The notes beneath the pieces were generated by a model. It did no database searches, was not told where the DNA came from, and worked only from the letters and a program-made list of their open reading frames with translations. A stretch of 34,485 nucleotides of DNA from an uncultured Opitutia bacterium (GTDB lineage: Bacteria; Verrucomicrobiota; Verrucomicrobiia; Opitutales; Opitutaceae), in assembly GCA_903948415.1 (NCBI GenBank), contig CAJAYO010000431.1:1-34485 (forward strand). Reading direction: 5' to 3'. Positions within the stretch are counted from its first letter, which is position 1. Every line of letters begins with the position of its first letter. Shown in pieces: positions 1,686-16,709 of this stretch. The translations under genes and the position numbers were made by a program.

Positions 1686-2018
1686 ATGAAAACCATCCAA
1701 GTCTACGATCCGCCCCTGTGCTGCCCGACCGGGATATGCGGCACGGACATCAATCCCGACCTCGTCAGCTTCGCCGCCCTGCTCGCGCAGCTCGGCGCGC
1801 ACGGCGTCACCCTCGAGCGCTACAACCTTGGCCAGCAGCCGATGGCGTTCGTGCAGAATCCGGCGGTGAAAGCCCGGCTCGACCAAGACGGCGCCGAGGC
1901 GCTGCCGTTGATTTTTCTGGACGGTGAACTTTATTTGAAAGGCCGTTATCCGACCGCCGCCGAGCGTCCCGGCTTTTTTCACGCCGCGCTCGGCGAGGTC
2001 GTCAAGGCACCGTCATGA
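1686..2018 (+). CDS. arsD: Arsenite metallochaperone ArsD
   Basis: ArsD hands As(III) to the ArsA ATPase. The protein opens IQVYDPPLCCPTGICG and keeps the three cysteines needed for arsenite binding. Started at the ATG at 1686 (110 residues), these are Cys12, Cys13 and Cys18, the numbering of classical ArsD, which is why I prefer it over the in-frame ATG at 1677 (113 residues). The thioredoxin-like core follows (LVSFAALLAQLGAHGVTLERYNLGQQP, then LPLIFLDGELYLKGRYPT). The C-terminal vicinal cysteine pairs of plasmid R773 ArsD are absent, as in many chromosomal versions. Its stop overlaps the arsA start (ATGA), so the chaperone and its client ATPase are probably made together. Confidence 0.95.
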   Translation: MKTIQVYDPPLCCPTGICGTDINPDLVSFAALLAQLGAHGVTLERYNLGQQPMAFVQNPAVKARLDQDGAEALPLIFLDGELYLKGRYPTAAERPGFFHAALGEVVKAPS

Positions 2019-3832
2019 ACCTCCCGTGCTATCGGCCCGATCCGGCCCGCGCCACGCGCTTTCTGTTCTTCACGGGCAAGGGCGGCGTGGGCAAAACGTC
2101 GCTGTCGTGCGCCACGGCGCTGAGGCTGGTCGAGGCGGGCCGGCGCGTGCTCTTGGTGAGCACCGACCCGGCGTCCAATCTGGACGAGGTGCTGGAGACC
2201 GACCTCGCGAACACCGCCACGCCGATCGCCGGCGCGCCGGGCCTCCACGCGATCAATATCGATCCGGTGGCGGCGGCCGCGGCTTATCGCGAGCGGCTGA
2301 TCGGGCCGATGCGGGGTCTGTTGCCGGTCGCGGCGCTGCGGAGCATGGAAGAGCAGCTGTCCGGCTCGTGCACGGTGGAGATTGCGGCGTTCGACGAGTT
2401 TTCGGGACTCATCGGCAACCCCGCGATGACGGCCGCCTACGACCATGTGATCTTCGATACCGCGCCGACCGGCCACACGCTGCGCTTGATGAGTCTCGCG
2501 AAAGCGTGGGATCAGTTTCTCGACCAGAACACGAGCGGCACGTCCTGCCTCGGGCCGCTCGCGGGACTGCAAAAACAGCGCGCCATTTACGAGGCCACGG
2601 TCAGCACGCTGGCCGACGCGGCCGCGACGACGCTCGTGCTGGTGAGCCGGCCGCAACTCGCAGCGCTGCGCGAGGCCGAGCGCACCGCCACGGAGCTGCG
2701 CGCGCTCGGCTTGGGCAACCAGTGTCTCGTCATCAACGGCCTGTTTGAAACGAAATGCCCCGATGATCCAACCGCGCAGGCGATGCAGCGGCGCGGAGGG
2801 TCCGCCTTGGCCGCCGCCCGCGAATTCATCGGCAGCCTGCCCAGTTTCACGGTGCCGCTCCGGCCGATCAATATCCTCGGTCTCGGCGGTCTGCGGCGGT
2901 TGCTCGACGACGGCGATGCGGCGGGTTCCGCGGCGCCCGAGCCGGCGGCGACCCTCGCTGCGTGGTCGCCGCCGGCCATGGAGAGTCTGGACACGCTGGT
3001 CTCTGCCATCGAGAAACGGGGCCACGGGGTCATCATGACGATGGGCAAGGGCGGGGTGGGCAAAACCACCGTGGCTGCCGCCATCGCCGTGATGCTGGCG
3101 CACCGCGGCCACGCGGTGCATCTCAGCACGACCGATCCCGCGGCCCACGTGGCGCAGACTCTGGCCGGCCAGGTCGCCGGTCTCACGCTCAGCAAGATCG
3201 ATCCGGCGGCGGAGACGGCGACGTATCAGGCGGAGGTCATGCGTGCGCAAGGGGCCGCGCTGGATGCGGCGGGCCGCGCCCTCCTCGCGGAGGACTTGCG
3301 TTCGCCCTGCACGGAGGAGATCGCGGTGTTCCGGGCCTTTGCGCGGGAAGTGGGGCAGGGCGCCGAACGGTTCGTCGTGCTCGATACGGCGCCGACCGGC
3401 CACACGTTGCTCCTGCTCGATGCCAGCGAAGCGTATCAGCGCGAACTGGAACGGCAGGCGCGCCGTACGCAGCCGGCCGAGGTGATGCAGTTGTCGGCGC
3501 GCCTCCGCGATCCGGGGTTCACGCACATTCTGCTCGTCACGCTGCCGGAGGCCACGCCGGTGCACGAAGCGGCCGCGTTGCAGGCGGATCTGCGCCGGGC
3601 GCACATCGAGCCCTTTGCCTGGGTGATCAACCAAAGTCTGCGCGGGAGCGGTTCGTGCGATCCGCTGCTCCGGCGCCGGGAAGCCGCCGAGCAGCGCTAT
3701 CTGACGGAGGTCGTGGAAAAACACGCCCGCCGCACCGCATGGCTGCCCTGGCAGCCGGAGGAGCCCGTCGGACCCGCGGCCCTGGCCCGGCTCGCCGCTT
3801 CTCACCTCCAACCCGGCCGTTCCCTCCCATGA
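2015..3832 (+). CDS. arsA: Arsenite-stimulated ATPase ArsA, two-domain form
   Basis: ArsA powers arsenite export together with a membrane permease. The 605-residue protein is a tandem duplication, close to the usual length of two-domain ArsA. Each half has a deviant Walker A GKGGVGKT (residues 21-28 and 344-351) and a signal-transduction motif DTAPTGHTL. Cysteines equivalent to the metalloid site of E. coli ArsA are at 119 (SGSCTVE), 178 (TSCLGP) and 432 (SPCTEE). Hydrophobic membrane-insertion features of Get3 proteins are not evident. It overlaps arsD by 4 bp and is followed by a 4-bp overlap with the small FmdB-like gene. The partner permease in this locus is most likely Acr3 (8430-9509). 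Confidence 0.97.
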   Translation: MNLPCYRPDPARATRFLFFTGKGGVGKTSLSCATALRLVEAGRRVLLVSTDPASNLDEVLETDLANTATPIAGAPGLHAINIDPVAAAAAYRERLIGPMRGLLPVAALRSMEEQLSGSCTVEIAAFDEFSGLIGNPAMTAAYDHVIFDTAPTGHTLRLMSLAKAWDQFLDQNTSGTSCLGPLAGLQKQRAIYEATVSTLADAAATTLVLVSRPQLAALREAERTATELRALGLGNQCLVINGLFETKCPDDPTAQAMQRRGGSALAAAREFIGSLPSFTVPLRPINILGLGGLRRLLDDGDAAGSAAPEPAATLAAWSPPAMESLDTLVSAIEKRGHGVIMTMGKGGVGKTTVAAAIAVMLAHRGHAVHLSTTDPAAHVAQTLAGQVAGLTLSKIDPAAETATYQAEVMRAQGAALDAAGRALLAEDLRSPCTEEIAVFRAFAREVGQGAERFVVLDTAPTGHTLLLLDASEAYQRELERQARRTQPAEVMQLSARLRDPGFTHILLVTLPEATPVHEAAALQADLRRAHIEPFAWVINQSLRGSGSCDPLLRRREAAEQRYLTEVVEKHARRTAWLPWQPEEPVGPAALARLAASHLQPGRSLP

Positions 3833-4047
3833 CCACCTACGTTTACGAAACCATCCCGCAAAAGGCGGACGAGAAACCGCAGCACTTCGAGTTCGCTCAG
3901 AACATGACGGACCCGCCGCTGACCCAGCACCCCGAGACCGGCGTCCCCGTGCGCCGCGTCATCATCGGCGGCTACGGCGTGCTGAAGAAGGAGGCCGCGT
4001 CGTCCCCTCCCGGCCAATGCGGGCCGCGCTGCGGTTGCCACCCCTGA
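3829..4047 (+). CDS. Small FmdB-like protein with degenerate zinc ribbon and C-terminal Cys cluster
   Basis: This 72-residue protein follows the FmdB/CxxC zinc-ribbon template over residues 1-51: an N-terminal TYVYE strand, FEFAQNMTDPPLT, a TGVPVRR segment and IIGGYGV. However, the two CxxC knuckles of FmdB proteins are replaced by ETIPQKADEK and HPETGV, so the normal zinc site is gone. Three cysteines instead sit in a tail, QCGPRCGCHP (C64, C68, C70). Its ATG overlaps the arsA stop (ATGA), so it belongs to the arsRDA unit and is probably coupled to it. A role as a small cytosolic metalloid-binding or delivery protein is plausible from the context and tail, but no function is known to me. Confidence 0.8.
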   Translation: MTTYVYETIPQKADEKPQHFEFAQNMTDPPLTQHPETGVPVRRVIIGGYGVLKKEAASSPPGQCGPRCGCHP

Positions 4048-4093
4048 GCGGTAGCCGGCGCCGCGGGTGCTGCGGGGACGGCCTGAAACGGGG

Positions 4094-4112
4094 CGGCGGT
4101 TACCGCCGTTTT
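4094..4112 (+). terminator. Possible weak Rho-independent terminator after the FmdB-like gene
   Basis: CGGCGG (4094-4099) pairs perfectly with CCGCCG (4103-4108) around a TTA loop and is followed by TTTT (4109-4112). The stem is short and the T-run has only four bases, so it may attenuate rather than stop transcription into the nuclease gene. The rest of 4048-4191 shows nothing else I can name. Confidence 0.35.
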
Positions 4113-4191
4113 CGGATACAGGGGGGGATTCCTCGCGAAACCCAAGCTTGCTTGCGAGGGCCGCCCGCCTCTGCCTTCGGCCCACACCACT

Positions 4192-5550
4192 ATGAAAATC
4201 ATGGACCTCAACAGCCAGGGCGGCATCGGCGCGAATTCGATGCACCTGCAGATCGGCGAGCTCAACATTTTGATCGACGCCGGGCTGAACCCGAAGACGC
4301 CCGGCCTCGGCGCGTTGCCGGACTTCAAGCAGCTGCGCGGCGTCGAACTCGATCTGATCATCGTCACGCACTGCCATCTCGACCACATCGGCGGGCTGCC
4401 CGTCGTCATGCGGCAACATCCGAAGACGCCCGTCCTGCTCACGACGTCGAGCCGCATGCTCATCGAGAAAATGCTGCACAATTCGGCGAACGTGATGGAG
4501 CGGCAGAAAGAGGAGGACAACGTCCCGGGCTATCCGCTCTTCACGCATGAAGAGGTCGACCGGCTGGTGAATCGGTTCGTGGGGCTGCCGTTCAAGAAGG
4601 CCAAAGTGTTTCGGGGCAAGAAGGACGAAATCGAAATCATGTTTCACCGGGCCGGTCATGTGGCCGGGGCGACCGCGGTGGAGATCCACCACAAGGGGCG
4701 GCAGATTTTCATCACGGGCGATGTGCTCTTCGAGGACCAGCGCACGCTGAAGGGCGCGCAGTTTCCGGCCGGGCACTTCGACACGCTCATCATCGAGACC
4801 ACGCGCGGCACGACGGAGCGCGCCTTCGGCAAGGAGCGCGTGCACGAAATCGCCCGGCTCATCGCGTCGATCAACGCGACGATCGCGGGCGGCGGCTCGT
4901 TTCTGCTGCCGGTCTTCGCGCTCGGGCGCATGCAGGAAATCCTGTCGGTGTTTCACGACGCGCGGCGTTTCGGCCGGCTGATCGATTGTCCGATTTACGC
5001 GGCGGGACTCGGGATGGGGCTCGCGGACCTCTTCGACGAGGTGTCGCGCAAGACGAAGGATGTGCAGTTCGACCGCCGGATCATGAAGGACCTGCACCTC
5101 AAGGCGCTCCCGCGCAAGCTGACGCCGGGCGTCGATCCGAAGCAGAACGCGCTCTACCTGATCAGCTCCGGCATGCTCGTGGAGCGCACGCCGAGCTACA
5201 CGCTCGCGTCGGGCCTGCTCGGCGACGCCCGCAACACGATCGGGTTTGTCGGCTACTGCGATCCGGATACCCCGGGCGGCAAACTCCAGGCCACGGCGCC
5301 GGGCAAGAAATTCGTGTTTGCGGCGATCAACGTGAAGACGGAGGTCAAGGCGCGGGTCGAGCGGTTCGAACTGAGCGGCCATGCCGAGCGCGACGAGCTG
5401 CTGGAGTTCGCGGTGCAGACGCAGGCACGGAGCATCGTGCTGACGCACGGCGATCCGGGCGCACGCGCGTGGTTCATGCAGGAAATCGCCGCGAAGCTGC
5501 CCCACGCGCGCGTGGTCGATCCGGTGCCGTTGCGGAAGTACGAGGTGTGA
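4192..5550 (+). CDS. Metallo-beta-lactamase/beta-CASP family RNase-like hydrolase
   Basis: This 452-residue protein has the two-metal MBL signature HCHLDH (H60, H62, D64, H65), then a histidine in RAGHVAGATAVEI and an aspartate in ITGDVLF. A beta-CASP insertion follows with ETTRG, LLPVFALGRMQEIL and YLISSGMLVE, and near the end a histidine-bearing LSGHAERDELLEF and VLTHGD. This architecture belongs to CPSF73/Ysh1-like RNA endo/exonucleases, which cleave or trim RNA. It lies between the arsRDA group and the second arsR on the same strand, with 144 bp before it. Whether it processes ars mRNA or responds to arsenic damage is unknown. The start could instead be the in-frame ATG at 4201. Confidence 0.9.
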   Translation: MKIMDLNSQGGIGANSMHLQIGELNILIDAGLNPKTPGLGALPDFKQLRGVELDLIIVTHCHLDHIGGLPVVMRQHPKTPVLLTTSSRMLIEKMLHNSANVMERQKEEDNVPGYPLFTHEEVDRLVNRFVGLPFKKAKVFRGKKDEIEIMFHRAGHVAGATAVEIHHKGRQIFITGDVLFEDQRTLKGAQFPAGHFDTLIIETTRGTTERAFGKERVHEIARLIASINATIAGGGSFLLPVFALGRMQEILSVFHDARRFGRLIDCPIYAAGLGMGLADLFDEVSRKTKDVQFDRRIMKDLHLKALPRKLTPGVDPKQNALYLISSGMLVERTPSYTLASGLLGDARNTIGFVGYCDPDTPGGKLQATAPGKKFVFAAINVKTEVKARVERFELSGHAERDELLEFAVQTQARSIVLTHGDPGARAWFMQEIAAKLPHARVVDPVPLRKYEV

Positions 5551-5630
5551 GGAGCATGACGTGGGCGGGCCGCGCCCGAGACCGGCCGGCCCGGGCAGCG
5601 TGACGTTTCGGCGACAGGCGGAATCGGGGC

Positions 5631-5658
5631 TTGAAGCGTATTCCTTGCGGAGAATACG
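5631..5658 (+). promoter_or_regulatory. Candidate arsR2 promoter/operator (7-bp arms, 8-bp spacer)
   Basis: CGTATTC (5637-5643) and GAATACG (5652-5658) form a perfect inverted repeat ending 9 nt before the arsR2 ATG. TTGAAG (5631-5636) abuts the left arm and may be the -35. The layout TTGNNN, palindrome, 9 nt, ATG is the same as at arsR1, but the operator sequence differs, so the two repressors probably recognise different sites. The rest of 5551-5667 holds GC-rich sequence without a clear element. Confidence 0.6.
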
Positions 5659-5667
5659 GTTGCCGGC

Positions 5668-6048
5668 ATGGAGCTGGTGAAAATTTACGAGTGTCTGTGC
5701 GACCCGACGCGGTTGCGGCTCCTCCACGTGCTGGCGCAGGGGCCGGTGTGTGTGTGCCATTTCCAGGCGGTGCTCGGCGAGCCGCAGGTGAAAATCTCCA
5801 AGCACCTCGCCTATCTGCGGGCGCGCGGCTTGGTGGGGAGCGAGCGGCAGGGGAACTGGGTGATCTATGCATTGCCGGCGAAGCCGTCGCGGGAGCTGCA
5901 GGCGAATCTGGCGTGTTTGCAGGACTGCGCGCGGGGCAATCCGGTGTTCAAGCGCGACCTCGCGCGGCTGAAGCAAATCGAGCCGTCGTGCGCGTGGGTA
6001 CGGGCGGGCGAACCGCAGAAGGCCCCGGGGCAGTGCCGCGGCGGGTGA
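5668..6048 (+). CDS. arsR: ArsR-family repressor (second copy)
   Basis: This 126-residue winged-helix regulator has [23 protein letters not shown], with a CVC pair (C28, C30) in the arsenic-sensing helix, then [17 protein letters not shown] as recognition helix and [10 protein letters not shown] as the wing. Extra cysteines occur at C9, C11, C83 and C87, so the As(III) site could differ from that of the first ArsR. It is only distantly similar to the copy at 1268. It heads the GAPDH-arsJ-acr3 group, with 34 bp to the GAPDH gene. The start is fixed by the upstream palindrome and by the usual family N-terminus (a helix beginning a few residues before the DPTR motif). Confidence 0.92.
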
Positions 6049-6082
6049 GCGACGGGCGCGGCCGACACGCGGAATTATTTCC

Positions 6083-7108
6083 ATGAAGAAAACCAAAATT
6101 GGCATCAACGGATTTGGGCGGATCGGGCGGCTGACGCTGCGCGCGGCGTGGGGCTGGCCGGAGTTCGAGGTGGCGCTGATCAACGACCCCAAGGGCGGTG
6201 CGGCCTGCGCGGCGCACTTGCTCACGTTTGACTCGGTGCAGGGCCGGTGGGCGCACGAGGCCGTGGCGGAGCAGGTGGGCGGAAACGACGTAATCCGCGT
6301 GGGCGCGACGAGCCTCGCGTTTACCGAGCACGCGAAGCCGGGCGAGGTGGATTGGGCGGCGCACGGCGTGGAGATCGTGCTGGAGTGCAGCGGGAAATTT
6401 CGCACGCCGGCGGAATTGGCGGTCTATTTCGAGCGCGGGGTGAAAAAGGTGATCGTCGCCGCGCCGGTGAAGGGCGATGCGCTCAATATTGTGATGGGCG
6501 TGAACGACGGGCTCTACGAGCCGGCGAAACACCGGTTGCTGACCAACGCGTCGTGCACGACCAACTGCCTCGCGCCGGTCGTCAAGGTGATGCACGAGGG
6601 CATCGGCATCGAGCACGGGGCGATCACGACGCTGCACGACGTGACGAACACGCAGACGCTCGTCGACGCGCCGCACAAAGATCTGCGGCGGGCGCGGGCC
6701 GCGGGGATGTCGCTGATCCCGACGACGACGGGGAGCGCGACGGCGATCGGGATGATTTATCCGGAGCTGCTCGGGAAGTTGAACGGCCATGCGGTGCGCG
6801 TGCCGTTGCTGACGGGGTCGCTCACGGACTGCGTTTTCCAGATGAAGCGCGACACGACCGTGGAGGAGGTGAACGCCTTGCTGCAGGCGGCGAGCGAGCG
6901 CGGACCGTTGCAGGGAATTCTGGGTTTCGAGACGCGGCCGCTGGTGTCGGTCGACTATAAGGGCGACCCGCGCTCGGCGATCATCGATGCGCTCTCGACG
7001 ATGGTCGTGAACCGGCGGCTGGTGAAGATCTACGCGTGGTATGACAACGAGTGGGGTTACTCGAACCGGATGGCGGAGCTGACGCGGAAGGTGGCGTTGT
7101 CGCTGTGA
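6083..7108 (+). CDS. ArsJ-associated glyceraldehyde-3-phosphate dehydrogenase
   Basis: This 341-residue protein is a complete type I GAPDH: NAD-binding [14 protein letters not shown] at the N-terminus, catalytic ASCTTNC (nucleophile C158), a substrate-binding segment with HDVTNTQ, and the C-terminal [12 protein letters not shown]. Together with ArsJ this enzyme makes 1-arseno-3-phosphoglycerate from glyceraldehyde-3-phosphate, arsenate and NAD+; ArsJ then exports the unstable product, so arsenate leaves without reduction. Its place directly between an arsR and arsJ, and sequence traits such as [24 protein letters not shown], mark it as the arsenic-operon paralogue rather than the glycolytic gene. 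The ATG at 6083 gives the usual N-terminus. Confidence 0.93.
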
Positions 7109-7153
7109 GCTCGGCGGTGAATCCACCCGCGGGTGCAGGCGGGCAATGAAGTC

Positions 7154-8401
7154 GTGAATCGGCGCAATTACATCGTCGTCACGTCGGCCTACTGGGGGTT
7201 CACGCTCACGGACGGAGCGCTGCGCATGCTCGTGCTGCTGCACTTCGCGCAACTCGGCTATTCGCCGGTGCGGCTGGCGATGCTGTTTTTATTCTACGAG
7301 TTTTTCGGGATCGTCACGAATCTGTTCGGGGGGTGGCTGGCGAGCCGGCTGGGGCTGCGGGTGACGTTGCTGGCGGGGCTGGCGTTGCAGGTGGCGGCGC
7401 TGGGGATGCTGGCGCTGTTGAATCCGGCGTGGTCGGCGGGGCTCGCGGTGGGCTACGTGATGGCGGCGCAGGCGCTGTCGGGCATCGCGAAGGATCTCAC
7501 GAAAATGAGTTCGAAGAGTGCGATCAAGGTGCTCGTGCCGGCGGGCGAGGCGGGGCGGGGCGCGCTGTTCCGGTGGGTGGCGATCCTGACGGGATCCAAG
7601 AACGCGTTGAAGGGCGTGGGTTTTTTCCTGGGCGGATTCTTGCTGAGCGTGGCGGGCTTTGCGGGTGCGCTGAGCGTGATGGCGGGGGCGTTGCTGGTCG
7701 TGCTGGTGGCGGCGTGGGCGGGGTTGCCGGCGGCGATGGGCAAGGCCAAGCAGAAAGTCGGGTGGGGGGACCTGTTTGCGAAGAGCCGCGCGGTGAACGT
7801 GCTGTCGGCGGCGCGGTTTTTTCTGTTTGGGGCGCGCGACATTTGGTTCGTGGTCGGCGTGCCGGTCTTCCTGAGCGCGTCGCTCGGCTGGAGCGGGGCG
7901 CGGGTGGGGGCGTTCATGGCGTGCTGGGTGATCGGTTACGGGATTGTGCAGTCGGCGGCCCCGGCGGTGTTGCGCGGGCGGGCGCCGGCCGGCGGGGTCG
8001 CGGCGGGGCTGGCGTTCGGGCTCGCCGGAATTGCGGCCGCGGTGCCGCTGGCCCTCGCGGCGGGGGCGCCGGCGGGCGGGGTGATCGTGGGTGGGCTCGC
8101 GGTGTTCGGCGCGGTGTTTGCGCTGAACTCGGCGGTCCACTCCTACCTGATTCTTGATTACACGGACGGCGACAAGGTGGCGCTGAACGTGGGGTTTTAT
8201 TATATGGCGAACGCGGGCGGACGGCTCGTCGGTTGCCTGTTGTCGGGCGCGCTCTTCCAGGTGGGCGGGCTCGCGGGATGCCTGTGGGGGACCTTTGCGT
8301 TTGCCCTGGCGGCGGCGGTGATCGCGCTGGCGCTGCCGCGGCATGCCGCGCATCCGGAGAAACTGGCCGCGGGGGGCGTGAAACTGGACGCGGGGGACTG
8401 A
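7154..8401 (+). CDS. arsJ: Organoarsenical (1-arseno-3-phosphoglycerate) exporter ArsJ
   Basis: This MFS-type inner membrane permease has about 12 hydrophobic segments and the ArsJ N-terminus [27 protein letters not shown]. Further conserved stretches are [33 protein letters not shown] and [15 protein letters not shown]. It exports the arseno-sugar phosphate made by the neighbouring GAPDH. The GTG at 7154 is chosen since ArsJ proteins begin just before the NY motif; a GTG at 7133 would add seven residues. Neither has a clear Shine-Dalgarno. It follows the GAPDH gene by 45 bp. The coding strand is strikingly G-rich, with alanine mostly as gcg. Confidence 0.93.
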
Positions 8402-8415
8402 TGGGGGGCGGTGGT

Positions 8416-8420
8416 GGAGG
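8416..8420 (+). promoter_or_regulatory. Strong Shine-Dalgarno of acr3
   Basis: GGAGG lies 9 nt before the acr3 ATG at 8430, followed by an A-rich spacer. It stands out because most other starts in this window have no recognisable Shine-Dalgarno, so the arsenite permease may be translated independently and efficiently. Confidence 0.65.
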
Positions 8421-8429
8421 AAAAAACTT

Positions 8430-9509
8430 ATGGATCCCGTGCTGAAAAAACTCTCGTTCCTCGACCGTTATCTGACGGTCTGGATTTTTGCCGCCATGGC
8501 CGGCGGCGTGGCGCTCGGGCACTTTGTCATCACGGACCCCGCGGCGTTTTTCGCGCCGATGACGGTGGGCACGACCAATCTGCCGATCGCGATCGGTCTG
8601 ATCCTCATGATGTATCCGCCGCTCGCGAAGGTGAAGTATGCCGAGCTCCCGCGGGTGTTCGCCGACACGCGGATTCTCGGCCTTTCGCTGGTGCAAAACT
8701 GGATCGTGGGTCCGGTCCTGATGTTTCTGCTCGCGGTAATTTTTCTGCGTGACCGTCCGGACTACATGGTGGGGCTCATTCTCGTCGGGATCGCGCGGTG
8801 CATCGCGATGGTGCTCGTCTGGAACGAGCTCGCCAAGGGCAGCCGTGAATACGCCGCGGGACTGGTGGCGCTCAACAGCCTCGCGCAGATTCTGTTCTAC
8901 AGTGCCTTCGCGTGGCTCTTCCTGACGGTGTTGCCGCCTTACTTCGGGCTGGAGGGGCGGATCGTGAAGATCGCGATGGGCGACATCTTCTGGAGTGTCA
9001 TGGTCTACCTCGGCATTCCGTTTGCAGCGGGCGCGATCAGCCGGGTGGTCCTGGTCCGCGCGAAAGGCGAGGCCTGGTATGAACAGACGTTTCTGCCGCG
9101 GATTTCCCCGCTCACGCTGGTCGCGCTGCTCTTCACGATTGTGATGATGTTTACGTTCAAAGGGGAAACGATCGTCCAGTTGCCGCTGGATGTGGCGCGC
9201 ATCGCGGCGCCGCTCGTCGTCTATTTTGCCGTGATGTTTTTCGTGAGCTTCTTCATGGCGAAGAAACTCGGGGCCGACTACGAACGTTCGGCGACGCTCG
9301 CGTTCACGTCGGCCGGCAATAATTTCGAACTGGCGATCGCGGTGGCGATCGCGGTGTTTGGGCTGGATTCCGGCGTGGCCTTTGCCGCGGTCGTCGGGCC
9401 GTTGGTCGAGGTGCCGGCCCTGATTGGGCTCGTGCATGTGGCTTTGTGGCTGCGCAAAACGTTTGGTCCTCCCGGCGGTGGACCGGCCGCGCCATCGGCG
9501 GCCGGGTAG
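8430..9509 (+). CDS. acr3: Arsenite efflux permease, Acr3 family
   Basis: Acr3 is a ten-helix member of the bile/arsenite/riboflavin transporter superfamily that extrudes As(III). The 359-residue protein shows the family's order of segments: [19 protein letters not shown], a first gated region with [19 protein letters not shown], the conserved cysteine motif [18 protein letters not shown] (C124, essential in characterised members), and the second inverted-repeat signature [20 protein letters not shown]. It ends within [23 protein letters not shown]. It can act alone or with ArsA. The gene follows arsJ after 28 bp and has a good Shine-Dalgarno. Confidence 0.96.
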
Positions 9510-9583
9510 GGGCTGGGCGTAATCCTCCGCGCTTGGGCTCGCGTGAACCTGCATCCGTCGTTCAACGTCGCGCCGTGTCCGTC

Positions 9584-9700
9584 ATGACGCCCCGCCCACC
9601 CAACTGTCGCACCGGCTGCACAATCGTGCCGGATCGCCGCGCGTCGGTGCGGCCGACGGCCGCCGCGGGCGGGCTGGGGCGTGGGGAGGCGGGGGCATGA
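9584..9700 (+). CDS. Possible 38-residue ORF with CxxxC, coupled to the TSUP gene
   Basis: An ATG at 9584 opens a 38-codon frame starting MTPRPPNCRTGCTIV and stopping at 9698-9700, exactly overlapping the next ATG (ATGA), the same coupling used by the certain genes upstream. The frame continues upstream into acr3, so openness alone is weak evidence in this GC-rich DNA. The basic, Gly/Ala-rich C-terminus looks uninformative. I do not recognise it. It may be a translated leader for the permease gene or simply noise. Confidence 0.3.
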   Translation: MTPRPPNCRTGCTIVPDRRASVRPTAAAGGLGRGEAGA

Positions 9701-10410
9701 TTGCCGGGGTTTTTCTCGTCGTGGCCGCGCTCTACGCCACCGTCGGGCACGGCGGGGCCTCGGGCTATTTGGCGGTGATGGCGCTCGCGGGTTTCGATCC
9801 CGCGGCAATGAAGCCGACGGCGCTCGTGCTGAATGTCGTGGTCTCGTTGATCGGCACGGTGGTTTTTGTCCGCGCCGGACATTTCGCGTGGAGGTTGTTC
9901 TGGCCCTTTGCGCTCGTGGCGGCGCCCTTTGCCTATTGGGGCGGTGGCTGGCACCTCAGCGCGGACGTTTTCCGGGGGCTCGTGGCGGCGGCGCTGGTTT
10001 TCGCGGCGGGTCGGCTCTTTCTGCCGGCGACCCTGCGGTCGGAGGTGCGGCCGCCGCCGGTGTGGGCGATCGTCGTCGCGGGCGCTGCGATTGGATTTGT
10101 CTCCGGGCTGATCGGCGTGGGTGGCGGAATTTTTCTGACGCCGTTGATCTTGTTTTGCCGGTGGGCGGAGCCGAAGCCGGCGGCGGCGGTGTCCGCGCCG
10201 TTTATTTTGGTGAACTCGCTGGCGGGCCTGCTCGGTGCGGCCGAATCGTTGGATCAATTGCCGGCGTCGTGGCCCTGGCTGGCGGTCGCCGCGACGGCCG
10301 GCGGGTTGCTCGGCTCGCGGTGGGGCAGCCGGGTGGCGCGGCCCGCGCAGTTGCGGCCGGCGTTGGCGCTGGTGCTGCTCGTGGCGGCGGTGAAGCTCGT
10401 GGTCGCTTGA
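9697..10410 (+). CDS. TSUP-family (TauE/SafE) membrane transporter
   Basis: This 237-residue polytopic protein has about seven or eight hydrophobic segments and the duplicated signature of the TSUP family: GHGGASGYLAVMALAG near the N-terminus and SGLIGVGGGIFLTPLILF in the second half. The family exports sulfite, sulfoacetate or related anions; members occur in arsenic islands, where the substrate is unproven. Its position directly after acr3 on the same strand suggests it belongs to the island. It begins in the ATGA overlapping a small ORF. Confidence 0.87.
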   Translation: MIAGVFLVVAALYATVGHGGASGYLAVMALAGFDPAAMKPTALVLNVVVSLIGTVVFVRAGHFAWRLFWPFALVAAPFAYWGGGWHLSADVFRGLVAAALVFAAGRLFLPATLRSEVRPPPVWAIVVAGAAIGFVSGLIGVGGGIFLTPLILFCRWAEPKPAAAVSAPFILVNSLAGLLGAAESLDQLPASWPWLAVAATAGGLLGSRWGSRVARPAQLRPALALVLLVAAVKLVVA

Positions 10411-10450
10411 GCGGGCGGCGCAGTTGAGGGTTGAAAACAGAGGGGCGGGT

Positions 10451-10468
10451 GCGAACGTGCCCGTTCGC
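10451..10468 (+). promoter_or_regulatory. Perfect 7-bp hairpin abutting the HAD start codon
   Basis: GCGAACG (10451-10457) and CGTTCGC (10462-10468) form a perfect inverted repeat with a TGCC loop, ending at the base before the ATG at 10469. It would sequester the ribosome-binding region in RNA, or serve as a dyad operator in DNA. Which of these holds is unknown. Confidence 0.4.
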
Positions 10469-11062
10469 ATGAAACTGGAGATTCCGGACGGAGACTTTGC
10501 AGGCTACATTTTTGACCTCGATGGCACGCTCGTGGACACGATGCCGTTGCACTATCGCGCCTGGGACACCGCGATGCGGCAGGCGGGGCTCACCTGCCAG
10601 CTCGATGAGGAGCTGTTTTACTCGCTCGGGGGCGTGCCGACGCGGCGCGTGGCGGCGCTGATCGGGGAGCACTATGGCCTGAAACTCGATGTCGAGGCGG
10701 TGTTCGAGGCGAAGGAGCGGCTGTTTGGCGAGATTCGGGCGGATGCCCGGTTGATCGAGCCGGTCGTGGAGTTCGCCCGAAAGGTGGCGAAGTCGCACCC
10801 GGTGAGCATCGCTTCGGGCGGGACGAGCGACATCGTGCACCCGATGTTAAAGCTGACGGGGCTCGCGGAAATTTTTCCCGTCGTGGTGTCGGCGGACGAT
10901 GTGGTGCACGGGAAGCCGGCGCCGGACATGTTTTTGCTGGCCGCGAAGAAAATGGGAGTGGAGCCGAGCCGGTGCCTCGTGTTCGAGGATGCGGAGCCGG
11001 GCATGCGCGCAGCGGAGGCGGCGGGGATGAAGTGGGTGCGGGTCGCGAGCCGGAAGAAGTGA
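10469..11062 (+). CDS. HAD-superfamily phosphatase, beta-phosphoglucomutase-like
   Basis: From the ATG at 10469 the 197-residue protein has HAD motif I FDLDGTLVDT (nucleophile D16, acid/base D18), an alpha-helical cap of the beta-phosphoglucomutase/YqaB type (LHYRAWDTAMRQAGL), motif II with IASGGTSD, and motifs III/IV with GKPAPDMFLLAAKKMGV and CLVFEDAEPGMRAAEAAGM. Such enzymes dephosphorylate small sugar phosphates such as fructose-1-phosphate; the exact substrate cannot be read from the sequence. A longer frame opens with TTG at 10424, but that start adds an unconserved extension running through the hairpin. It may be unrelated to arsenic. Confidence 0.85.
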   Translation: MKLEIPDGDFAGYIFDLDGTLVDTMPLHYRAWDTAMRQAGLTCQLDEELFYSLGGVPTRRVAALIGEHYGLKLDVEAVFEAKERLFGEIRADARLIEPVVEFARKVAKSHPVSIASGGTSDIVHPMLKLTGLAEIFPVVVSADDVVHGKPAPDMFLLAAKKMGVEPSRCLVFEDAEPGMRAAEAAGMKWVRVASRKK

Positions 11063-12314: not shown

Positions 12315-12463
12315 ACCTCGATTCGCAGGCGAAGGGTGCCTGGCGCCGGGTGCGATTGGTCGGGCGAAAATCGGCCCGATGGGGCCGGGCGCGAGACTGC
12401 GATCACGACCAACTTTGTGTAAAATTCACTTGCACTAGTAATTCTGTTGCATTCTCCTCCCGG

Positions 12464-12523
12464 TCTTTTCCTTCAGCCAAATGAGCAAAATTCCTCACGC
12501 TCTTTTCCACCGACCAAATGAGC
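12464..12523 (+). repeat. Bipartite 23-nt direct repeat, candidate enhancer-binding site
   Basis: TCTTTTCC-N5-CCAAATGAGC occurs at 12464-12486 and again at 12501-12523, a centre-to-centre distance of 37 bp, with different N5 sequences. It lies about 70-130 bp upstream of the transcription start predicted from the sigma-54 element, where bacterial enhancer-binding proteins usually bind. The surrounding 12315-12656 gap has no gene and is markedly less GC-rich than its neighbours. Confidence 0.6.
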
Positions 12524-12569
12524 GCGTTGGGATCGTCTCCGGCACAAAATCCGTCCGTGGCGTGCACTC

Positions 12570-12585
12570 TGGCCCAAGGCTTGCA
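12570..12585 (+). promoter_or_regulatory. Sigma-54 (RpoN) -24/-12 promoter of the polysaccharide export operon
   Basis: CTGGCCCAAGGCTTGCAG (12569-12586) matches the -24/-12 consensus TGGCAC-N5-TTGCA, with one difference in the -24 hexamer. The GG at 12571-12572 and the GC at 12583-12584 are separated by the required 10 bp. Transcription would start at about 12596, leaving a leader of about 60 nt before the ATG at 12657. Activation would need an AAA+ enhancer-binding protein, probably at the upstream direct repeats. Confidence 0.65.
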
Positions 12586-12656
12586 GTTCGGATCGACGGT
12601 TTTTGAGCTTCTCAATTTAGATTTCTTTCTCCTAGCTACCAACAACTACCACGCAA

Positions 12657-13760
12657 ATGAAGAACTACGCACGAATTGCCATCATATCAGTCGCGTTTGG
12701 CACCGCGGTCAGCGCCGCTCCGTTTTTGGCGATCGGAGACGGGGCCGAGTTGTTTGTCACCGGCACCCTGGGAGTCCGGGCTGATGATAATATTTTCACG
12801 ACGGACAAGCCGATCAGTGACACGATTTTTGACATCAATCCCGGCGTGGAAATCACCTTCGGCAAGGACGCGGCGCTCAAGGGAGCGCTGACGCTGGTCG
12901 ACAGTTTCGCCAACTACTCCGACAACAGCAATCTGAACACGAACCTGTTCACGGGTGATTTCAATGCGGCTTTTGACGACGCCAAGTTGAAGCTGAAGTT
13001 CAACACGGGTTTCCATGAGCTCAACCAGAACGCCCCCGACATTCGGGGTCTGACGCGTCGCGATCAGTTTGTCATCGGTTCGGGTGCGGAAGTTGAGATC
13101 TCGCAAATCACGTCGGTCGCCGCCGGGGTCGATTTCGACCACACGAACTACAAGCGCGCCGGTTATGGCGATTCGGACACCCTGACGGTCCCGCTGAATT
13201 TCTACTACAAATGGACCGCGAAAACGTCCCTCAGCGCCGGTTACCGTTACAAGGACTATCAGACCACGGTGGGTTTGGATTCCTCGGATCACTATTTCAA
13301 CGTCGGTGCGCGCGGTGAGCTGTTCTCCGAGAAGCTGACCGGCGAGGTTTCGGCCGGTGTGACCACCCGTGAGTTCTCCCGGGGTGGGAATGAGACCCTG
13401 CCCGGTTTCGAGGCCAAGCTGACCTACGAGATCACGCCGAAGACCTCGCTCCAGCTCGGCGGTTCGAACGATTTCGGGACTTCTCCCCAAGGTGCACAGC
13501 AAAAGAACCTGTCCTTCAACGGCGGCCTGAACATCAAGCTTGACGACCAATGGACCCTGAACGGTGGTTTGAATTTCCGGGCCGTCGATTACTACACCCG
13601 CACTGAAGACTACATCGAGGGAACTCTTGGCGCCGGCTACATTGTTAATGCGTTCGTGAAGATCGCGGCGAGCTACACCTACCGCAACAACAGCTCGCCC
13701 CTCGTCGGCGGCGATTTCACGCAAAACGTGTTCAGTCTCTCCGCCAGCTTGCGCTACTAA
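12657..13760 (+). CDS. Outer membrane beta-barrel protein of polysaccharide export (BBP2-like)
   Basis: This 367-residue protein has a signal peptide (MKNYARIAIISVAFGTAVSA, cleavage near A20) and then alternating beta-strand sequence. Recurrent aromatic-girdle strands such as TSLSAGYRYKDYQ, FVKIAASYTYRNN and a final strand ending SASLRY with terminal tyrosine mark an outer membrane barrel. It resembles the putative beta-barrel porin family seen in exopolysaccharide clusters (VpsM and Myxococcus Wzp types). Being followed by a short periplasmic OPX protein and a Wzc kinase, it probably forms the outer membrane channel for the polymer. GC content is lower than in neighbouring genes. The ATG at 12657 directly precedes a good signal sequence. 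Confidence 0.82.
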   Translation: MKNYARIAIISVAFGTAVSAAPFLAIGDGAELFVTGTLGVRADDNIFTTDKPISDTIFDINPGVEITFGKDAALKGALTLVDSFANYSDNSNLNTNLFTGDFNAAFDDAKLKLKFNTGFHELNQNAPDIRGLTRRDQFVIGSGAEVEISQITSVAAGVDFDHTNYKRAGYGDSDTLTVPLNFYYKWTAKTSLSAGYRYKDYQTTVGLDSSDHYFNVGARGELFSEKLTGEVSAGVTTREFSRGGNETLPGFEAKLTYEITPKTSLQLGGSNDFGTSPQGAQQKNLSFNGGLNIKLDDQWTLNGGLNFRAVDYYTRTEDYIEGTLGAGYIVNAFVKIAASYTYRNNSSPLVGGDFTQNVFSLSASLRY

Positions 13761-13786: not shown

Positions 13787-13821
13787 CGGAAGAAGATCTA
13801 TATGGTCTTCTTCCGTTTTTT
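13787..13821 (+). terminator. Strong intrinsic terminator or attenuator inside the export operon
   Basis: CGGAAGAAGA (13787-13796) pairs perfectly with TCTTCTTCCG (13806-13815), extended by a T-G and a C-G pair, with a 5-nt loop and then six Ts (13816-13821). It lies 26 bp after the barrel gene and before the OPX gene, so barrel mRNA would exceed that of the downstream export genes. Confidence 0.85.
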
Positions 13822-13840
13822 GTCGGTCCCTATTTCACCC

Positions 13841-14461
13841 ATGTCCCGGTTGGCCTTCTCCTTTGTCCTTTCGTTCTTTTGGGTGCATGCGGTGATGGCT
13901 GCGCCCGCGGATTCCGCGTCCAAAACGGCCGCCTCGACCAAATCGGATGGGGCCAAGCCGGACTACATCCTGCAACCGTCCGACCTGATCCGGATTCAGA
14001 TTTTCCAGGAAGACGACCTTAACCGCGAAGTGCGCATCTCGCAGGAATACACGGTAAAACTTCCTCTGGTCGACACGGTGGACCTGAAGGATAAGACAGC
14101 GCGGCAGGCGGAAGACTACATCCGCGAACTTTACGGCCGCGATTTCCTCGCAAAACCGCAGGTCAACCTGTTCGTTTTGGAATACGCCCCCCGGCGCGTA
14201 TTTGTGGCCGGTGCGGTCGCGACGCCCGGCGTCGTGCTGTTCCAGCAGGAGCAGGGCCTGACCCTCATCGACGCCATCTCCCGGGCCGGCAGTTTCAACC
14301 GCCTGGCGGACAAAAAACGCGTGACCTTGAAACGGACGAAACCGGACGGTTCCACCGAAACCTCCACCATCAATGTCGACGACGTCATGAAGGGCGATAC
14401 GAACCAGACGTGGCCGCTTCAGCCGAACGACGTGATCACGATTCCCGAAAAAATTCTCTGA
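13841..14461 (+). CDS. Short polysaccharide export (OPX/Wza-like) protein
   Basis: The 206-residue protein starts with a signal peptide (MSRLAFSFVLSFFWVHAVMA). It contains a polysaccharide-export domain at about residues 40-120 (DYILQPSDLIRIQIFQEDDLNREVRIS, then VDTVDLKDKTARQAEDYI) and an SLBB domain at about 123-205 (VFVAGAVATPGVVLF, then WPLQPNDVITIPEKIL). It lacks a lipobox cysteine and ends after the SLBB, so the C-terminal amphipathic helix that lets E. coli Wza span the outer membrane is missing. It is therefore probably periplasmic and works with the upstream barrel. An ATG at 13802 in the same frame lies in the loop of the terminator hairpin and is rejected as the start. Confidence 0.88.
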   Translation: MSRLAFSFVLSFFWVHAVMAAPADSASKTAASTKSDGAKPDYILQPSDLIRIQIFQEDDLNREVRISQEYTVKLPLVDTVDLKDKTARQAEDYIRELYGRDFLAKPQVNLFVLEYAPRRVFVAGAVATPGVVLFQQEQGLTLIDAISRAGSFNRLADKKRVTLKRTKPDGSTETSTINVDDVMKGDTNQTWPLQPNDVITIPEKIL

Positions 14462-14480: not shown

Positions 14481-16709
14481 ATGGAAACTCCCGAAAAACA
14501 AAAACAGGAAGGCGCCGGCTACGGCTACAATTACGGTGGCAACTACGCCGGCTATTCCGCGGTGGGCTATGGCTATGGCGACGGGGGAGGCGGCGGCGCA
14601 GTCCAACGGAGTTTTCAGGATTATCTCCTGATCCTCCGCGAACGCATCTGGTACGTCGTCGTCGTGTTCCTCGTCGTCTTTTCGAGCGCCTTGGTCTACA
14701 CGCTCAGCCAGACGAAGATTTACCGTTCCAGCGCCACCGTGCAGATTTTCCGGCGCGATCCCAACGTGATCCAGATGCAGCAGGTGATGGATAACGACAT
14801 CCGGTCGGCCGAAGATCTCAACACCCAGATCAAGGTGTTGGAGAGTGCCAGCATCATTCGCCGCGTGGCGGAGCGGATCACGGGTGATGATTTGCGCGCC
14901 TTCCTCGCGCCCTACGAAAAGAGTTCGGCGGATACCGCCTTCGTCGCCAACATTCTGGCAAGCAATCGCAAAGTCGTGCAGACGCGGTTGTCGCTCATCG
15001 TCAATATCACCTACGACCACCCGGACCGGTTTGTCGCGGCCAAGGTTTCCAATTTTTTTGCCGACGAGTATCTGGCGCACAACACCCGCCTCCGGATCGA
15101 CGATTCGCGCACCGCCTACGACGCGTTGAATGTCACGGTCGACGACCAGCGCAAGAAGGTCGATCAGCTCGCCGACATGCTCCAAGCCTACAAGGAGAAG
15201 AACAACATGGTCTCCCTCGACAGTCGCAAAGACATCGTGAATGAGACGCTGAAGGCCATCAATCTCGAGGCCAACCGGGCGGCCACGGCGCTCAATGGCG
15301 CCGAGATCCGGGTCAACCAGGTGAAAGAGCATCGCGCCAAGGGCATCGACCTCACCGATCTCCCGTTTATCGCGAACCAGCCGGCCATCACCACGCTCGT
15401 CCAGCAACGCTCGTCGCAGCAAATCGCCATTGCCCAGCTCCGCGAGCGGTATTTGCCCAAGTATCCCAAGATGGTCGAAGCGGCCAACTCACTGGCCCAA
15501 ACCGAGCGGGAACTGAAGAAGGCGATCGACTCCGTGTGCGCCCAGGTGGAATCCGATTATCAATCGGCGGTGCGCAATAACGAGCAAGTCCAGGAGGACT
15601 TGCGGAAACAGAAAGCGGAGTCGCTCGATCTTGATCGGTACGCTCTGCAATACACCAAACTCGAACGGGATTTGAAGCTGGCGGAATCGATTCTGCAGAC
15701 GATCACCGGCCGCGCCCGCGAAACGTCGATGACGGGTTCGATCCAAACTCAGAATGCCCGCATCGTCGACCGCGCCGCCGCCGCACCGGAAAGCAAGCCG
15801 GTCACGCCGAACGTTCCGCTGAACCTCGGCCTGGGCGTCGTCGGCGGCCTCGGCCTCGGCCTCGCGTTCGCGTTCTTCGTGGCGTTCATCGACGACCGCG
15901 TGAAAAGCTCATTTGATATCGAAGGGGTCGTCGGGCTCCCGTTGATCGGAATTATTCCGCAGATCAAACGCATGGATCAGTCCGAAAAAGCGCAGATCGT
16001 GGTGAACAATGCCGACCGGCAGGTCGCCGAAGCATTTCTCACGCTCCATTCCAGTCTGCGCCTGAAAGACGAAAGCAAAGCCGCGAAATGTATTCTCATC
16101 ACGAGTACGATTCCCGGCGAAGGCAAATCGTTCACCACGACCAATCTCGCGCTCACGTTTGCGGCGCATGGCGAGCGGGTCTTGGTGGTCGATTGCGATC
16201 TGCGCAAACCGAACATCCACAAGTCGTTCAAGGTGGAAAACCTCAAAGGCGTGATCGACGTGTGCGCGGGCACCTCGACCTTGGACGAGGCCATCATCAA
16301 GGGTCTGCAGCCGAATTTCGACGTCCTGCCCGCCGGCGGCCGGGCGAAAAATCCGACCCAGATTCTCAACAGCAAGGGCTTTGAGCTCATGATCTCGGAT
16401 CTGCGCAAGCGTTACGACCGGGTCTTTATCGATACGCCGCCCCTCGCGGCCGTGAGCGATGCGCTCATTATTCTTCCGCTGGTCGACGGCTCGATTTTCA
16501 CGATCTTCTTCAACAAGGTGCGCCGCAAAGCCGCCCAGTTCAGCGCCAAGAAACTGCTCGATGCGAACGTCCCGAATTTTGGCGCCGTGCTCAACGGTCT
16601 GAACCTCGCGGTGTCCGGCTATTACTACGCGCAGTATTACGACAAATCCTACAAGGATTACTATGTCGTGATGTCCAAGAACGAAGAGTCGGACAAAGAC
16701 GTCCGTTAA
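14481..16709 (+). CDS. Wzc-like polysaccharide co-polymerase with BY-kinase domain
   Basis: This 742-residue inner membrane protein has a Wzz chain-length domain between TM1 (about residues 56-76) and TM2 (about 448-470), a long periplasmic coiled-coil (about 190-430), and a cytoplasmic bacterial tyrosine kinase. The kinase shows Walker A IPGEGKS (about 543-549), Walker A' VVDCDLRKP and Walker B VFIDTPPL. The C-terminus is a tyrosine cluster (SGYYYAQYYDKSYKDYY), the usual autophosphorylation tail. Unusually, the first 45 residues are Gly/Tyr-rich (GYGYNYGGNYAGY, then GYGYGDGGGGG). It controls polymer length and couples synthesis to export. It follows the OPX gene by 19 bp. No glycosyltransferases are nearby. 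Confidence 0.93.
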   Translation: METPEKQKQEGAGYGYNYGGNYAGYSAVGYGYGDGGGGGAVQRSFQDYLLILRERIWYVVVVFLVVFSSALVYTLSQTKIYRSSATVQIFRRDPNVIQMQQVMDNDIRSAEDLNTQIKVLESASIIRRVAERITGDDLRAFLAPYEKSSADTAFVANILASNRKVVQTRLSLIVNITYDHPDRFVAAKVSNFFADEYLAHNTRLRIDDSRTAYDALNVTVDDQRKKVDQLADMLQAYKEKNNMVSLDSRKDIVNETLKAINLEANRAATALNGAEIRVNQVKEHRAKGIDLTDLPFIANQPAITTLVQQRSSQQIAIAQLRERYLPKYPKMVEAANSLAQTERELKKAIDSVCAQVESDYQSAVRNNEQVQEDLRKQKAESLDLDRYALQYTKLERDLKLAESILQTITGRARETSMTGSIQTQNARIVDRAAAAPESKPVTPNVPLNLGLGVVGGLGLGLAFAFFVAFIDDRVKSSFDIEGVVGLPLIGIIPQIKRMDQSEKAQIVVNNADRQVAEAFLTLHSSLRLKDESKAAKCILITSTIPGEGKSFTTTNLALTFAAHGERVLVVDCDLRKPNIHKSFKVENLKGVIDVCAGTSTLDEAIIKGLQPNFDVLPAGGRAKNPTQILNSKGFELMISDLRKRYDRVFIDTPPLAAVSDALIILPLVDGSIFTIFFNKVRRKAAQFSAKKLLDANVPNFGAVLNGLNLAVSGYYYAQYYDKSYKDYYVVMSKNEESDKDVR

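Follow-up and report, generated by a model that had tools for sequence, protein, structure and literature searches.

Sigma-54 has been linked to surface and polysaccharide genes in several systems. The PEP-CTERM/exosortase genes are associated with a sigma-54 cis-regulatory site together with PrsK/PrsR (Haft, 2006; PMC1569441), and pepA in Aquincola is RpoN-dependent (PMC9850573). Sigma-54 promoters have also been described for exterior and EPS genes of Desulfovibrio vulgaris, where activator sites are commonly found no more than about 100 nt upstream, some of these promoters lacking a recognisable one, and where activator genes often stand beside their targets and activator sites are conserved across genomes (PMC4641369). 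The locus described here would resemble that of D. vulgaris in placing polysaccharide and surface functions under sigma-54 (PMC4641369). The window, by which we mean the whole 34,485-nt stretch analysed, is a contig (G000:C431) of the 6.7-Mb genome of a lake bacterium of the Opitutaceae (Verrucomicrobiota); its closest named relatives are MAGs of freshwater Opitutaceae. The region of interest is a 342-bp intergenic region (12315-12656) between a hisC-like aminotransferase gene and a three-gene export operon (Table 1). The barrel protein showed weak similarity to the XrtB/PEP-CTERM-associated EpsL; the best NCBIfam match of the Wza-type protein was TIGR03027, below the cut-off of that model, and the Wzz/Wzc-type protein matched TIGR01007 above its cut-off. 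The set and order of the barrel, Wza and Wzc genes were kept in most of the orthologous loci inspected.

Comparison with the PEP-CTERM/PrsR system revealed both likenesses and differences. In both, a -24/-12 element stands before genes related to the cell surface or to polysaccharide, the start codon follows the sigma-54 motif at a similar distance (about 71 nt on average, compared with 72 here), and an upstream motif is repeated, sometimes in the PEP-CTERM/PrsR system and also here. However, that system has been reported only in Proteobacteria and before genes for PEP-CTERM proteins, whereas the element here precedes an export operon. Its motif 1, which lies before the sigma-54 motif, ends in TTTACA, and no forward TTTACA was found in 12315-12656. 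Exosortase (PF09721) was present in 9/9 genomes of the genus, with three matches in the window's own genome. A PrsR-type regulon was rejected, as the best of eight activator-like proteins reached 397 bits against a TIGR02915 cut-off of 502.6 and TTTACA was missing. The bases just before the ATG in the window (12640-12657) and in its orthologs (ACCACGCAAATG, CATACGAAAATG, CGCACGCCAATG) are conserved without resembling a Shine-Dalgarno sequence. Further upstream (2015-9509), translations judged by eye suggested a possible arsenic-handling cluster, with an ArsA-like double ATPase (2015-3832), an ArsJ-like pair made up of a GAPDH-like protein (6083-7108) and the MFS transporter after it (7133-8401), and, last, an ACR3-like arsenite exporter (8430-9509).

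Table 1. Sequence elements and genes of the export locus (window coordinates).
Feature	Sequence	Position	Strand	Basis
A-tract/CTTGC box	AAAATTCACTTGC	12421..12433	+	Gibbs motif search, orthologs
P1, distal -24/-12-like element	TAGTAATTCTGTTGCA	12436..12451	+	Fixed offset to box
Repeat copy 1 (core 12464-12486)		12455..12486	+	81% identity to copy 2 over 32 nt
Repeat copy 2 (core 12501-12523)		12492..12523	+	Well kept in L087
P2, sigma-54-type -24/-12 promoter (predicted)	TGGCCCAAGGCTTGCA	12570..12585	+	Consensus match and orthologs
Outer-membrane beta-barrel protein (BBP2_2), operon gene 1		12657..13760	+	PF10082, E=1.4e-17
Wza-type polysaccharide export protein		13802..14461	+	PF02563 and SLBB
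Wzz/Wzc-type chain-length determinant with tyrosine autokinase		14481..16709	+	PF02706 and AAA_31

The original prediction had placed a correctly spaced GG-N10-GC element 72 bp before the barrel gene, and the sequence confirmed this: in P2 the GG occupies 12571-12572 and the GC 12583-12584, with 72 nt (12585-12656) in front of the barrel-gene ATG, and transcription from it would be predicted to start near 12596. Among the 95 loose matches in the window, P2 alone came within one mismatch of TGGCACN5TTGCW. Scored with a sigma-54 PSSM that follows the published consensus, it reached 15.8 (p=0.002 against shuffled sequence), and scores of at least 15.8 are expected 0.0005 times in the 342-nt intergenic region and about 0.1 times in both strands of the whole window. 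It was also the top score in the 122 kb of own-genome sequence scanned, and of the six exact TGGCMCN5TTGCW sites in the 6.7-Mb genome it alone lies clearly in intergenic DNA ahead of a gene. The second-best PSSM match in the 122 kb is found just 3' of an enhancer-binding-protein gene and before a gene for a small exported protein, a position that would be expected of a genuine sigma-54 site.

Orthologous upstream regions were gathered from the genus and the family. Within the genus, sites were detected in L087 at -75 (p=0.012), L091 at -71 (p=0.002) and L092 at -53 (p=0.035); in the alignment of L091 with the window, TGGCCC and TGCA were kept and most of the intervening bases differ. Orthologs from three other genera, not used in forming the hypothesis, also carried sites (L198 at -57, p=0.013; L201 at -51, p=0.013; L207 at -94, p=0.037; L208 at -80, p=0.023). 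Over the set of 21 loci to which these orthologs belong, a few of which duplicate loci already examined, sigma-54 sites gave a combined Fisher value of 1e-4; duplicates were dropped for the test of score against position, in which scores of 11 or more fell at -45 to -100 in 6/41 orthologs compared with 2/123 other intervals of these sequences (p=0.003, or 0.010 with the analysed contig itself left out). Upstream regions of other genes in the same loci served as controls and gave sites at the chance rate (3/88 at p<=0.05). On the protein tree the eight P2-positive rows formed two groups, and presence of P2 required 3 changes as against 7.6 in shuffles, only 1 of 500 shuffles being as low; the ortholog rows are related, so none of these p-values is fully independent. 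Overall, a P2-type site was found in four of the genus's eight non-redundant rows and in three genera besides, with loss in the genus subgroup L088-L090. It was absent from the sister group (17 rows), most of which had the distal box described below and no detectable P2. As RpoN was present in 25 of the 26 genomes tested, including most of the sister-group genomes, either sigma-54 control of the operon would be clade-specific or the box serves another promoter. Separately, a complete genome of another genus (L195, G011) has a strong sigma-54-like site, TGGCCCGGCATTCGCA, before its orthologous gene at about -179 rather than in a proximal position.

The machinery for such a promoter is encoded. 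The own genome has an intact, full-length rpoN ORF with the RpoN box ARRTVAKYR, PF04552 (RpoN) was present in 9/9 genus genomes, and nine proteins of the own genome matched Sigma54_activat. Judged by eye, L014 among these looks like ClpC, and in about three the GAFTGA loop is degenerate or missing, leaving five canonical activators. Together with the independent orthologs, the intact rpoN and the encoded enhancer-binding proteins support the call of a sigma-54 promoter. The linked activator gene that was looked for fared differently, since none was found beside the operon in the neighbourhoods listed. Elsewhere in the genome, a second polysaccharide-export locus (L174; G000:C935, 3007-15323) encodes a BBP2 barrel and a Wzz/Wzc-type kinase; an NtrC-type activator gene (9180-10634) adjoins its export genes, and an ECF-sigma-like gene and a PAS histidine kinase lie nearby. 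That activator would be the first candidate for the operon in the window. Another locus (L177; G000:C335) has a strong -24/-12 site, TGGCACAACCGATGCA, on the minus strand at 8937-8952. It is flanked by an activator gene whose loop is degenerate (GAFTDA) and by a gene for a small exported protein, and would serve well as a positive control when sigma-54 is studied in this genome.

The best-conserved element 5' of the operon is an A-tract/CTTGC box that the original prediction had missed (region 12421-12453). It lies about 230 bases 5' of the barrel gene and about 150 bp 5' of P2, and corresponds to the dominant motif of the orthologs, g.AAAAaAc.CTTGC at -140 to -260, for which a Gibbs search of 23 orthologs gave an information of 373, compared with about 250 for shuffles. 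The box was recovered in 9/21 further orthologs at p<=0.05 (Fisher 9e-10), and the exact pattern AAAAWNCRCTTGC occurred once in the whole 6.7-Mb genome. As this exact form was found once in the own genome and at close to control levels across the family, a role as a general promoter was rejected. It may be an activator site or part of a promoter. Next to it lies P1: in 5/28 orthologs, from five genera or lineages, the offset from the first T of the box TTGC to the start of a GG-N10-GC was exactly 7 bases, whereas other offsets averaged 0.1. P1 is intact in L091, L088, L109, L198, L201, L215 and L107, three of which (L091, L198 and L201) have P2 as well; in the window and L087, AG replaces GG. 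The same element, GGTAATTCTKTTGCA, is kept without the box in the subgroup members L088 and L109. This pattern suggests two alternative sigma-54 promoters, although their reciprocity is not clean, as neither is intact in L089 and L090.

Three other readings of the region have to be weighed against that of a sigma-54 promoter at P2 with an activator anchored at the box. The original prediction had P2 driven by an activator bound to two TCTTTTCC-N5-CCAAATGAGC repeats acting as a tandem enhancer, and had offered the repeat as a motif for finding the regulon. The two copies, 37 bp apart, are indeed exact, with 0.01 expected, and lie at a plausible enhancer distance, some 60-120 bp 5' of the -12; the activator motif of PEP-CTERM sigma-54 sites is also sometimes repeated (PMC1569441). 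However, in the alignment with L087, the nearest relative (90% protein identity), only copy 2 was well kept and copy 1 poorly so, and no counterpart was found in L091, which is gapped there, or in L092, whose one 16-nt direct repeat overlaps its own sigma-54-like sites; nor did L091, L087, L088 or L109 have other lineage-specific tandem elements. The genome scan returned this one locus, all other matches having three mismatches (3, compared with 5 in the reversed-pattern control). Neither as a conserved activator site nor as a regulon motif does the repeat find support, and in conservation and in linkage to an activator gene it differs from the sites of D. vulgaris (PMC4641369). With a period of 37 bp, or 3.5 helical turns, the copies would lie on opposite sides of the helix; the unit does not form a clear inverted repeat, and the neighbourhoods listed have no linked activator gene. 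The tandem enhancer is therefore improbable as the driver of P2. Since the copies are alike well beyond the core and the repeat is confined to this species and L087 among the loci compared, its simplest reading is a partly decayed 37-bp tandem duplication from the ancestor of the two species; a role in activation is possible for copy 2. One arm of a 15-nt inverted repeat (12356-12370/12503-12517, 87% complementary) also lies within copy 2, and its upstream arm is apparently not kept in L087.

We regard it as about equally improbable that P2 is a chance match while the conserved features belong to some other regulation, independent of sigma-54. In G+C-rich DNA, GG-N10-GC motifs occur often, and loose -24/-12 matches were enriched neither in the window (95 found, 111 expected) nor genome-wide (246, compared with 393 for the reversed-pattern control), but the low p-values of the ortholog sites, their concentration at -45 to -100, their clustering on the tree and the behaviour of the controls speak against chance. 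Somewhat less improbable, though still unlikely, is that the distal block is the real promoter, with the A-tract as an UP element, CTTGCRC as a -35-like sequence and a start near 12460. Transcription would then use a housekeeping or ECF-type sigma factor and produce a leader of about 170-200 nt, and P2 would be fortuitous or minor. In conservation the block far exceeds every other element; it is nearly identical between the window and L087, it is kept in genera without P2, and T-rich positions recur about 17-25 nt downstream of it. Yet no -10 emerges at standard spacing, the intergenic region yielded no sigma-70-type promoter and no terminator, the box, unlike a general promoter element, is found only once in the genome, and the recurrence of P2 at a fixed distance would have to be coincidence. 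A leader RNA or riboswitch was rejected, as there was no Rfam match and folding was no better than that of shuffles (z +1.5).

Thus, the 342-bp region is likely to be a composite sigma-54-type control region with a putative upstream activator. RNA polymerase with sigma-54 would bind P2, and an NtrC-type enhancer-binding protein bound upstream would hydrolyse ATP to allow transcription to start. The upstream anchor would most likely be the A-tract/CTTGC box rather than the tandem repeat. Because P1, intact next to the box in several relatives, has decayed in this species, P2 would be left as its working sigma-54 promoter. We put forward more tentatively that export control in the Opitutaceae combines a novel box for an activator (A4-6-NCRCTTGC), P1 set at a constant offset to it and P2 100-160 bp downstream, with lineages keeping P1 or P2, and, with the same reserve, that a composite region of this kind is undescribed in the literature searched.

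The comparison sets a promoter that it backs apart from a repeat that it does not. A sigma-54 promoter, found again in relatives belonging to several genera, probably switches on the polysaccharide-export genes. If this is right, it makes a case from sequence that sigma-54 controls the export of exopolysaccharide in the Verrucomicrobiota, a phylum with almost no promoter work in the literature searched. Of the elements, the distal box most deserves to be pursued; its family-wide occurrence would offer a handle for finding the protein that binds it.
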